In this document: one piece after another, positions 14,074 through 19,532 of the stretch
How the letters are laid out: every line of letters starts with the position of its first letter
Position numbering within the stretch: position 1 is the stretch's first letter
Assembly: GCA_903937385.1 (NCBI GenBank)
Contig: CAIZZF010000005.1
Span: forward strand, 186,001 to 250,000
Direction: 5' to 3'
Source of the DNA: an uncultured Holophagaceae bacterium
GTDB taxonomy: Bacteria; Acidobacteriota; Holophagae; Holophagales; Holophagaceae
Length of the DNA stretch: 64,000 nucleotides
The notes under the pieces: generated by a model
The model's database searches: none
Told to the model about the DNA's origin: nothing
Seen by the model: the letters and a program-made list of their open reading frames with translations, nothing else
Program-made: the position numbers and the translations under genes

Positions 14074-14159
14074 GAAACCTCCCTGCTGCCAGGATACCCG
14101 GCCCTGGCGACAGCGCCCCAGGGGGGGTGCTATGCTGCTCCGAACTCCAGGAGTCCACG

Positions 14160-15287
14160 GTGGCCGAAGCGATTCATTGCCCGAGCTGCTCCACCCGCTA
14201 CCGCCTCCGGCCGGAACGGCTGAGGCCGAGCCTGCGGCGCGCGCGCTGTTTCTCCTGCGGGAGCACCTTCCCCGTGGGCGACGTCGTCCAGCGGGTGCTG
14301 GGCCTGCCCGCCCCGGATGCCACCGCCGGTTTCGAGGCCGAGGCGCTCGAGGCCCTGCGCCTGGCCACCCTCCCTCCCCAAGACCTGGAGGAAGCGCCGG
14401 CCCTCACCCTGGAGGATCTGCCCAGCAGCTTCACGGCGGTCCTGGACCAGACCCTGCCCGAGGTCCCCGCCTTCCTGCCGGAAGCCAAGGAAGACCTGCC
14501 CACCACCGTGCCAGTCCAGGAAGCCGCCCCCCCGGCGGAGCTCCCTCCCCCCGAACTGCCCAAGACCACGGCCTCGGGCTACACCTCCGCCCGGGATGCC
14601 ATCGACAAGCTCTTCGGCGATGCCCCCGCCGAACCGGCTGGCCTGAGAATCAGCCGCCATCCCGACGACATGGACATGGAGGCCACCCTGTCCGCCCTGG
14701 ACTCAACGCTGGCCCCCCCGCAAGCCAAGGTCCAACCCGAACCGGAGCTGCCTTCGGTGCCCGCCCCCAGCCTGGAAGACGGGGCCACCGCCTCCGGCTA
14801 TGCCCCCAACCTGCTCGGCGCCGCCAGTTCGACGGTCCGCATCTCCCAGGCCGACCTCCTGGCCGCCATGGCTTCCGTGCCAGCCTCTGCCATGGAGGAG
14901 CCGACGGTGGCCTTCGAGGCGACGGACCTGCTGCCGCCCCCCGAGGAACTCACCGAGGTGGTCCCGGCTCCGAGCAGCTTCGCGCCCCTCCCTGATGGCC
15001 CGGAAACGGGTGCGGAACTCCTGCGGCTGAAGATCGGCGAAGACATCTACGCCGGGCTCACGATGCCCCAGCTCATCGCCTGGGTGGATGAGGGACGCAT
15101 CCTCGAGAACCACATGGTGGCCCGCCAGCACAGTGAAAACTGGCTGGAGGCCTGCAAGGTGCCGGGCTTGCGCCCTGCCTTTGACCGGCTCCGCCGCGAG
15201 CGGACTGGCGGAGCACCCACCTTGCCCCAGGCCGAAGAGCCGGCCCCCAAGAAGGGCCTCTTCAGTGGTCTGTTTGGAAGGCACTGA
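14160..15287 (+). CDS. MJ0042-type zinc-ribbon protein with long Pro/Ala-rich linker
   Basis: A 375-residue protein. Start chosen at GTG 14160 because AGGAG lies 6 nt upstream and the translation then opens straight into the zinc ribbon; the frame itself opens at an earlier ATG. Residues about 5-38 contain CPSC..CFSCG, the MJ0042 zinc-finger pattern. Residues 50-285 are low-complexity, acidic and Pro/Ala-rich. A compact C-terminal domain of about 65 residues (LKIGEDIYAGLTMPQLIAWV onward) resembles GYF-like domains seen in similar proteins. It is probably an adaptor, as in many myxobacterial and acidobacterial proteins, but the role is unknown. Confidence 0.75.
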   Translation: MAEAIHCPSCSTRYRLRPERLRPSLRRARCFSCGSTFPVGDVVQRVLGLPAPDATAGFEAEALEALRLATLPPQDLEEAPALTLEDLPSSFTAVLDQTLPEVPAFLPEAKEDLPTTVPVQEAAPPAELPPPELPKTTASGYTSARDAIDKLFGDAPAEPAGLRISRHPDDMDMEATLSALDSTLAPPQAKVQPEPELPSVPAPSLEDGATASGYAPNLLGAASSTVRISQADLLAAMASVPASAMEEPTVAFEATDLLPPPEELTEVVPAPSSFAPLPDGPETGAELLRLKIGEDIYAGLTMPQLIAWVDEGRILENHMVARQHSENWLEACKVPGLRPAFDRLRRERTGGAPTLPQAEEPAPKKGLFSGLFGRH

Positions 15288-17122: not shown

Positions 17123-18172
17123 TCAGAAAGCCAGCTGTTCCTGGATCTGGGCGCTGAGGCCATCCAGCAGGAGGTAGCGCTTGGCGTAGAGGGACCGCTT
17201 GTTGGGCTTGATCTCCTCCGACGTGCGCCGGGGCGTGGTCAGCGGCAGCCGGAACCAGCCGTCCCCCACGGGCACACCGCCGACCTCGGTCCAGAGGTCA
17301 TCGAAGTCGAACCGGAAATCCCGCCTGGGCACCAGAGGATTGTTCACCCGGGCCCGGTAGACCTGGATGGCGTTGCCCACTCCCTGCAACTCCGAGGCCC
17401 CCAGGGCCCGGGCCACTTCCTGGACCACCAGGACCATGAGGTTCTTGGGGCGGAGGCCGTGCATGGCTTTCGTGGCCAGCTTGATGGCCGCCTCGTCCCC
17501 ACCCTTGCGGCCCTGCAGCCCGCCGATGCGGACGATCAGCCCCGTGCCGAGCTCCAGGGAGAAGGCCACCCCCGTGATGGCCCCCGGCACACCCTCCAGT
17601 TCCAGGAAGACCGAGACCTCGCCCTCCTTGCGGAACTGGGCATCGCTGCCGAGGCGGAGCAGGCCCTTCTGACCTCGGTCCAGAGCGAAGCGCGCCAGTA
17701 CCAGGCCCCCGGGCTGCCGCATGGCCTCGGCCAGGAAGCCGCCATGACCGAGCAGGCCCAGATAGGTGTCCTGGATGACCTTGGTCCGGCGCGCCAAGCC
17801 CCAGCCCACGGCCATGTAGCGTGTCAGGGCCCGGAAGATGAGCCGGGGGTTGGCCCGACTGAAGGCCTCCATAGCCACATCCTCGTGAAAGGAGAACCAG
17901 GCCAGGGCCGCCTCGGGCCGCAGGGCGGCGGCGGTGGCCCAGCGCAGGTGCCGCTTGAACAGGCGCAAGCTGTTCGTATTGAGGCGATAGACGTGTCGGC
18001 TCCATCCCCAGGCCTTGTGGGCAGCTTTCCAGTAGACCCGAACCAAGGGGGCTCCATCCGTGTGGAGGTATTGTAGCCCACCATATAGAAATAGCCGGTC
18101 CCTTGGGCAGACGCTCCCGAGATAACCCAAGGACCAGGTATCCAGCAGGCCCACCGGGCCCTCATTCGGCAC
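17123..18172 (-). CDS. VirK/YbjX (DUF535) family protein
   Basis: A 349-residue cytosolic protein. The C-terminal KPNKRSLYAKRYLLLDGL and the central ITGVAFSLE and GLRPKNLMVLVV segments match the VirK/YbjX (DUF535) family, whose members are linked to envelope or peptide-resistance phenotypes in enterobacteria. No catalytic mechanism is established. The first codon is GTG at 18172; a later start is possible because the first 20 residues look unlike the family. It follows the heptose kinase cluster on the same strand with a gap of about 60 nt. Confidence 0.75.
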   Translation of the reverse strand: MPNEGPVGLLDTWSLGYLGSVCPRDRLFLYGGLQYLHTDGAPLVRVYWKAAHKAWGWSRHVYRLNTNSLRLFKRHLRWATAAALRPEAALAWFSFHEDVAMEAFSRANPRLIFRALTRYMAVGWGLARRTKVIQDTYLGLLGHGGFLAEAMRQPGGLVLARFALDRGQKGLLRLGSDAQFRKEGEVSVFLELEGVPGAITGVAFSLELGTGLIVRIGGLQGRKGGDEAAIKLATKAMHGLRPKNLMVLVVQEVARALGASELQGVGNAIQVYRARVNNPLVPRRDFRFDFDDLWTEVGGVPVGDGWFRLPLTTPRRTSEEIKPNKRSLYAKRYLLLDGLSAQIQEQLAF

Positions 18173-18271
18173 CAGGATTCAACCCCGCTCCAGTATCATT
18201 GGTCCAAGGAATGGGAGTTCCTCTCTGCCGCGGCCTGCCCGGCTTGTTGTGTGTCTTGCCCGGAGTCCTGG

Positions 18272-18898
18272 TTGAAGCTGAGCTCTCTGCTGGTGCCTCT
18301 GGGTGTCCTGTTCCTGTCCGGTTGTGCGGGTGGGCTCAACAGCGACACCAGCAACATCGAGATCCGGGCCCTGAACATGGCCCTGGCCAACAAGGCCCAG
18401 GAGCTGAAGCTCACCTACCTCGATACCTATTCCATCCTCCTCGCCAACACCGGCAAGCCCCTGGTCTTCTTTTACCAGCCAGACGGCGAGCACCTCTCGG
18501 AGCTGGGCTACCTGCGCTGGGCCGACGCCAGTCTTGTCCCCTACATCAAGTACTACAAGGTCACCTGCGCCGGCATGGTCGGGGACTCCATCACGCGGCG
18601 CGTCAATGCGGTCCAGATCCCGAACCCCACCCGAGACGCCACCTGGGACGACCTCCTGGCCATCAAGGCCTACAACCTGGGCGTCGACGGGGAGACCTCC
18701 GCCGATGTGCTTCAGCGGCTGCACCAGCTGGTCCAACCCGACATCGACTGCTACTTCGTGATGATTGGCAACAACGACCTGCACGCCGCCGTGCCTATCT
18801 CCCAGGTCATCGCCAACGTCGAGACCATCGCCCGCTACCTGAAGACCCAAAGCGGCAAACCGGTCGTGATCCAGGCCGTGATGCCCCTCAACCGCTAG
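18272..18898 (+). CDS. SGNH-hydrolase-like lipoprotein with motif blocks in permuted order
   Basis: A 208-residue lipoprotein starting at TTG 18272 (GGAG 6 nt upstream; an in-frame GTG lies 21 nt earlier). It has a signal peptide with lipobox LSGC (Cys18). The SGNH blocks appear in unusual order. First comes the block normally at the C-terminus, with NIEIRALN and DGEHLSELGY (Asp71, His74). Then come the blocks normally at the N-terminus: GDSIT (Ser106), NLGVDGET (Gly137) and GNND (Asn168). The protein stops at VMPLNR, where an unpermuted protein would continue into NIEIRALN. All catalytic residues are present. Circular permutation is inferred; see findings. Confidence 0.8.
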   Translation: MKLSSLLVPLGVLFLSGCAGGLNSDTSNIEIRALNMALANKAQELKLTYLDTYSILLANTGKPLVFFYQPDGEHLSELGYLRWADASLVPYIKYYKVTCAGMVGDSITRRVNAVQIPNPTRDATWDDLLAIKAYNLGVDGETSADVLQRLHQLVQPDIDCYFVMIGNNDLHAAVPISQVIANVETIARYLKTQSGKPVVIQAVMPLNR

Positions 18899-18923: not shown

Positions 18924-19532
18924 ATGCCCGTCACCCGACCCATGCTCATCTCTCTCGGCCTGGCCTGTTGTGGGCTCGCCTCGGCCTCCGAGCCCATGGT
19001 GCCCAGCCTGCACCTGGGGATCGCCGATGCCCAGGGCGATTTCCGCAATGAGATGGGGACGAAGCACGCGTCCCAGGGAGCCCTGTCGCTGACGATCCCC
19101 CTGACAGGAACCCTGGCCATCCGCCCGAGGGTGGCCTTCCAGGCCTTCACCACCATCGACAATCAATACGCCTACAAGTCGACCCGCTACAACGATCTGG
19201 GTGCGGAAGACTCCCGCTGGAGCGCGTGGTCCCTGGGCGGGGACGTGCTCTACCGCCCCAGCGGGCCCCGGGGCCGCCTCTACTTCCTGGCCGGGGCCTA
19301 CCTGAAGGTCTGGCGGGAGCACAGCTTCGGGACCTACACCACCAGTGACCGGGTGAACCCTACCCGCACCTACATCGTGAACGACACCAGCACCAAGGAC
19401 GAGCCCGCCGTTGCCCTGGGCCTGGGCTACACCCTCCACCGCCGCGTCAGCCTGGAGAGCCGCTATGTGTTCTGCATCTACCGGGGCCTGAGCTACAACA
19501 CCCTGGAAGCGGCGATAGTTCTGAGCTACTGA
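18924..19532 (+). CDS. Outer-membrane beta-barrel-like protein
   Basis: A 202-residue protein with a signal peptide (residues 1-22, cleaving after ASA). The mature part is built of alternating hydrophobic/polar strands rich in aromatic residues (SRWSAWSLGGDVLY, GRLYFLAGAYLKVW, ALGLGYTLHRRVSLESRYVF) and ends in LSY with a terminal aromatic. That is typical of small eight-stranded OmpW/OmpX-like porins. The family assignment rests on pattern only. It follows the SGNH-like gene by 25 nt and may be co-transcribed. Confidence 0.7.
   Translation: MPVTRPMLISLGLACCGLASASEPMVPSLHLGIADAQGDFRNEMGTKHASQGALSLTIPLTGTLAIRPRVAFQAFTTIDNQYAYKSTRYNDLGAEDSRWSAWSLGGDVLYRPSGPRGRLYFLAGAYLKVWREHSFGTYTTSDRVNPTRTYIVNDTSTKDEPAVALGLGYTLHRRVSLESRYVFCIYRGLSYNTLEAAIVLSY

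Follow-up and report, generated by a model that had tools for sequence, protein, structure and literature searches.

Does the open reading frame at 18272–18898 of the window analysed here (a 64,000-nucleotide stretch of contig CAIZZF010000005.1 from an uncultured Holophagaceae bacterium) encode an SGNH hydrolase that has been circularly permuted, or has its unusual order of motifs a more trivial source? The gene belongs to a group of lake and pond Holophagaceae bacteria, and its 208-residue product carries, from the N-terminus onwards, the motifs LFLSGC18, NIEIRALN, D71GEH74LSELGY, MVG104DS106IT, GVDG140ETS and GNN168D, with VMPLNR as its C-terminal end (Table 1). This layout, with catalytic blocks ordered H-S-G-N, a lipobox leading into NIEIRALN and a stop at VMPLNR, had been described in the initial annotation and was recovered at the same positions. 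The TTG start codon (18272) is credible because it is common to all ten orthologs (counting the source genome) and a GGAG lies a few nucleotides 5′ of it in eight of them. By inspection, LFLSGC18 reads as a lipobox, its Cys lying at a fixed distance, 10 residues before NI(E/Q), in 10/10 orthologs; the motif is less typical in two (LLNC in L006, LMSC in L010).

Table 1. Features of the permuted SGNH locus and its immediate neighbours (positions within the window)
Feature	Position	Strand	Details and evidence
DUF535 (VirK/YbjX) gene, divergent	17123–18172	−	PF04393, 176 bits
GGAG, likely ribosome-binding site for TTG start	18262–18265	+	Sequence; GGAG in 8/10 orthologs
Permuted SGNH (GDSL_2-type) lipoprotein gene	18272–18898	+	208 aa; block order V(H)-I(S)-II(G)-III(N); ORF, profile, alignment, model and rotation evidence
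Lipoprotein signal peptide and putative lipid-anchor Cys18 (LFLSGC)	18272–18325	+	Cys18 invariant in 10/10
First part, residues 28–98 = canonical C-terminal part	18353–18565	+	6njc 121–201; 4iyj 146–197; profile positions after GxND block
Block V DGEH, predicted catalytic Asp71 and His74	18482–18493	+	Invariant in 10/10; aligned with canonical DGxH
Second part, residues 99–208 = canonical N-terminal part, GDS strand to VMPLN strand	18566–18895	+	PF13472 profile 2–111; model 96–208 on 6njc 42–144
Block I GDS, predicted nucleophile Ser106	18581–18589	+	MVGDSIT invariant
Block II GVDGETS, predicted oxyanion Gly140	18680–18700	+	Aligned with GISGDTS of canonical relatives
Block III GNND, predicted oxyanion Asn168	18767–18778	+	GNNDLH invariant
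Outer-membrane beta-barrel-like protein (OMP_b-brl) gene	18924–19532	+	PF13505, 26.3 bits, under the cut-off of 28.7

The ORF matches PF13472 (Lipase_GDSL_2) at 61.0 bits against a cut-off of 32.9, in two pieces whose order is swapped: in the Pfam search, residues 103–204 fall on profile positions 2–111 and are accompanied by a second stretch, and a genome-wide scan gave the pieces as profile 2–123 and 118–176, likewise in swapped order. Rejoined in the canonical order, the two parts yield a single unbroken match to profile positions 2–176 of 178, scoring 70.2 bits (61 in the natural order), and PF13472 is matched by all ten orthologs. In a rotation scan, every circular rotation of the protein was scored with an HMM built from canonical relatives only; the best starts were residues 95–102, the start of the GDS strand, giving one domain at 76.1 bits, compared with 58.5 for the natural order. 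Each of the four orthologs tried peaked at this strand start, and canonical proteins scanned as controls peaked at, or a few residues from, their natural order. When an HMM of the rejoined orthologs is matched to canonical proteins, the alignment continues uninterrupted across the junction (e.g. L031, 68.6 bits, model positions 27–174).

A phmmer search against solved structures matched 6njc twice, with chain residues 36–125 corresponding to query 120–207 and chain residues 121–201 to query 12–92; this split match places the break between two adjacent elements, the VMPLN strand and the NIEIRALN helix, where it had first been proposed. The cut falls next to the active site, in the loop that follows core strand 4; the length of this loop varies among canonical relatives, and in the permutant the protein's two ends stand in its place. 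The SGNH residue set is kept, with the Ser of GDS, the Gly, the Asn of GxND and the Asp-x-x-His all aligned with the canonical blocks, and the earlier claim that every catalytic residue is retained holds: D71, H74, G104–S106, G137/G140 and N168, together with C18, are invariant in all ten orthologs. In the natural protein these blocks run H-S-G-N, and the canonical S-G-N-H order is obtained only after in silico rejoining. The swapped PF13472 pieces, the rise from 61 to 70.2 bits on rejoining and the rotation-scan peak thus uphold the circular permutation that had been read from the motifs, and the ORF is a true circular permutant of an SGNH hydrolase, filed as a permuted variant and not as an ordinary GDSL_2 member. 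The annotation is corrected because Pfam shows two half matches where one intact enzyme exists.

Structure prediction had been named at the outset as a check on whether the two halves form one domain. AlphaFold2 supplied with the orthologs alone produced a poor model (pLDDT 52); the final input (alignment A3), in which the orthologs were combined with separately aligned halves of canonical relatives, gave a predicted structure with a pLDDT of 87.4 and a pTM of 0.82, in which the halves are modelled as one domain with helices and strands as expected, and low confidence is confined to residues 1–23 (signal region and tether). Since a good model needed the canonical halves, their packing in it rests partly on AlphaFold2's fold knowledge. 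The first part of the model comprises the helix NIEIRALN (28–35), strand 5, D71-x-x-H74, the last helix and a short linker to the old N-terminus.

With this predicted structure, order-dependent structure searches behave as expected for a permutant. VIA-align superposed only model residues ~93–208, on canonical residues preceding the cut, the alignment ending at the new C-terminus (6njc residues 42–144, rmsd 2.4 Å; other matches were CrmE10, Z 9.1, and TesA, 1j00, Z 8.9 over 102 residues with an rmsd of 2.6). Foldseek likewise aligned roughly half the model, with 110 columns and an rmsd of 1.7 Å on 6njc. Neither order-dependent aligner superposed the first part, which such methods cannot align, so that the one-domain packing rests on the model together with the motifs and the profile tests. 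As to the three-layer alpha/beta/alpha fold of the superfamily, the observations are the single confident domain of the model and the superposition of its second part on SGNH structures.

A misassembly, or a tandem array of normal-order genes collapsed into one, was the caution attached to the initial annotation, and homologues with the same order in related genomes were its proposed check. Such homologues were found in nine further genomes of the genus. With the source genome, the orthologs represent ten species of one genus, in separate assemblies, and are collinear, with 67–95% identity, a mean column identity of 82% in their alignment (n = 10) and dN/dS values of 0.08–0.37. No remnant flanks the gene, which is followed after 25 nt by the beta-barrel gene and separated by ~100 bp from the DUF535 ORF. 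Because ten independently assembled species encode the permutant collinearly, misassembly and a collapsed array are ruled out, and the chance that the arrangement is an artefact is negligible.

The permutant is narrowly distributed. In a survey of 77 Holophagaceae genomes it occurred in 10 of the 47 belonging to the genus and in none of the 30 from other genera, and a sample of 396 genomes from the phylum yielded no full-length permutant outside the genus. No permuted relatives were found in viral contigs, and plasmids and phages yielded half matches only, with no full-length permutant. A contig scan returned nine loci only, all in uncultured Holophagaceae MAGs from several projects, a count to be read with the point that the scan could miss distant permutants because exact peptide patterns were required.

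Concerning the parent of the permuted gene, the genome-wide scan found no other PF13472 gene in the source genome, where the permuted gene is the sole Lipase_GDSL_2 match; in several relatives, canonical TesA-like genes are present as well. In a tree of the rejoined permutants and canonical relatives, the nearest sequences are L031, L033, L035 and L036 (support 93/75, with a permutant stem of 3.2 and a long-branch warning), and the TesA-like genes of the genus itself lie far from the permutants. A local paralog was rejected as the parent on these two grounds. No tandem intermediate or relic of a duplication was found; the gene could plausibly have arisen by duplication and subsequent loss of both outer halves.

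The beta-barrel gene lies on the same strand and directly next to the permutant in all ten genomes, and is probably co-transcribed with it. Close homologues of the beta-barrel protein were found only in the ten permutant genomes, and its sequence gave no match to solved structures. The DUF535 gene is upstream of the permutant in all nine genomes with a long enough contig; it probably starts within the listed ORF, because conservation is lacking over the N-terminal ~40 residues and the matching stretch contains an in-frame stop in two relatives. DUF535 homologues occur in other genomes of the genus without the permutant and barrel pair. VirK/YbjX has an effect on outer-membrane integrity in Shigella and is proposed to be GNAT-like (PMC12562796). 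The trio of DUF535, permuted SGNH and beta-barrel genes is kept in three genomic contexts (L021/L022/L023/L029, in the tmk-hldE region; L024/L027; and L025/L028), and therefore moves or is retained as a unit. A zinc-ribbon protein with weak C-terminal GYF_2 similarity, adjoining tmk, is encoded at 14127–15287 (+). Overall, the neighbourhood points to the outer membrane, but to no substrate.

We consider it highly probable that the product is an SGNH ester hydrolase of the GDSL_2 type, circularly permuted in nature and exported as a lipoprotein. Going by what is known of the family, Ser106 would attack the ester, His74 and Asp71 would complete the triad, and Gly140 and Asn168 would form the oxyanion hole. 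That the nearest relatives include short-acyl and acetyl esterases suggests, by analogy, an acetyl or short acyl ester as the bond attacked. Cys18 would be lipidated, and an outer-membrane destination may be expected because no Asp follows this Cys. In SGNH folds the core strands run parallel and end at the active site, and the canonical termini are at the opposite end of the sheet. Because the strands are parallel and the active site is at their C-terminal ends, the anchor of the permutant would leave beside the active site and not from the far end of the sheet, a tether of ~9 residues from the lipid anchor emerging on the active-site side. As the cut adjoins the active site and the putative lipid anchor forms the new N-terminus, the enzyme probably turns its active site towards the membrane, a geometry derived from general knowledge of the fold; an ester close to the membrane, in a glycolipid, a phospholipid or an envelope polymer, would be the substrate.

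Two further readings accept the rearrangement and differ over what it makes. One holds that the two parts are real but form a domain-swapped dimer, or act as a transferase instead of a hydrolase. Permuted junctions can favour swapping; here, however, a short linker of conserved length joins the old C-terminal helix to the GDS strand, and AlphaFold2 gives a confident monomer model. A transferase would accord with the characterised permuted relatives, which are O-acetyltransferases (PMC9487903), and with the GNAT-like fold proposed for the divergent neighbour DUF535 (PMC12562796), but the canonical Asn168, lost in AlgJ/AlgX, is retained. We regard this combined reading as unlikely.

The other reading stems from a point on which the initial annotation did not stand, its statement that no permuted member had been described: circular permutation of the SGNH core, with the H block first, has been published for AlgJ, AlgX, WssI and the DHHW protein PatB1 (PMC4148444, PMC9487903, PMC5697884, PMC10302187), the block order of AlgJ/AlgX being H-S-G-Y (AlgJ: PMC4148444). 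The order swap is thus real and conserved, and of a type already known in distant enzymes of the superfamily. The permutant might then be a polysaccharide O-acetyltransferase of this old permuted stock, given that the H-S-G-N order is common to both and that N-terminal membrane anchoring is also found there (PMC4148444, PMC10302187). Its motifs argue otherwise: GTSYS, Tyr and DxH mark AlgJ/AlgX, and PatB1 carries KDS together with TDHHW, but the blocks of the permutant read GDS, GxND (with Asn) and DxxH. The AlgX and DHHW Pfam models gave no match to the permutant at E values up to 1, against 61 bits for GDSL_2, and the KDS and TDHHW motifs are absent from it. A length of 208 residues leaves little space for a cap and a long hairpin, and no MBOAT partner was seen among the neighbours scanned. 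The fold-search matches listed (VIA-align, Foldseek) included none of AlgX, AlgJ and PatB1, which excludes nothing. Descent from the AlgX/AlgJ/WssI or DHHW/PatB1 group is, on balance, very unlikely.

Because GDS, GxND and DxxH are kept and neither the AlgX nor the DHHW family is matched, the gene seems to represent a permutation event of its own within the GDSL_2 branch, of which no permuted member was found in the literature (open-access full texts). With slightly more doubt than belief, we propose the fuller account of an independent, lineage-restricted permutation in the true GDSL_2 branch, apart from AlgX/DHHW, whose active-site-side N-terminus would serve as an anchor holding the enzyme face-down on the membrane, with a dedicated beta-barrel partner. 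If this account is true, permutation has been used for re-orienting an enzyme relative to the membrane. A clear natural circular permutation with every catalytic motif intact, and with canonical relatives at hand for comparison, is uncommon. The locus suggests that the SGNH core was apparently cut at least once more, inside the ordinary GDSL branch, and is a clean case for asking why a permutation is retained, the new end being a putative membrane anchor that adjoins the active site.

The closest solved relative by sequence is the sialate O-acetylesterase of Bacteroides (Phocaeicola) vulgatus (6njc/7pzg), of the canonical GDSL_2 type. Both of its halves align with the permutant, including NxGxxGxT, GxND and DGxHLxxxGYLxW; in contrast to the permutant, it has the S-G-N-H order and a loop at the place of the permutant's two termini. 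E. coli TesA (thioesterase I/protease I/lysophospholipase L1) has the SGNH fold predicted for the permutant and the same catalytic set, and the second part of the permutant superposes on it (1j00), but TesA has the canonical order and is soluble in the periplasm, without a lipid anchor. AlgX, AlgJ and WssI (alginate and cellulose O-acetyltransferases) resemble the permutant in their circularly permuted SGNH core with H-S-G-N order, and AlgJ and WssI also in an N-terminal membrane anchor. They differ from it in their GTSYS/DxH motifs, a Tyr or Asp in block III, a cap domain, an extra hairpin and their polysaccharide operons; in place of the GTSYS, DxH and Tyr of AlgX/AlgJ, the permutant has GDSIT, DGEH and the invariant Asn168. 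The DHHW family, represented by Bacillus cereus PatB1, likewise has a circularly permuted SGNH core, whereas PatB1 itself carries KDS and TDHHW motifs, is larger, belongs to a family of Bacilli/Clostridia and is a secondary cell wall polysaccharide O-acetyltransferase.
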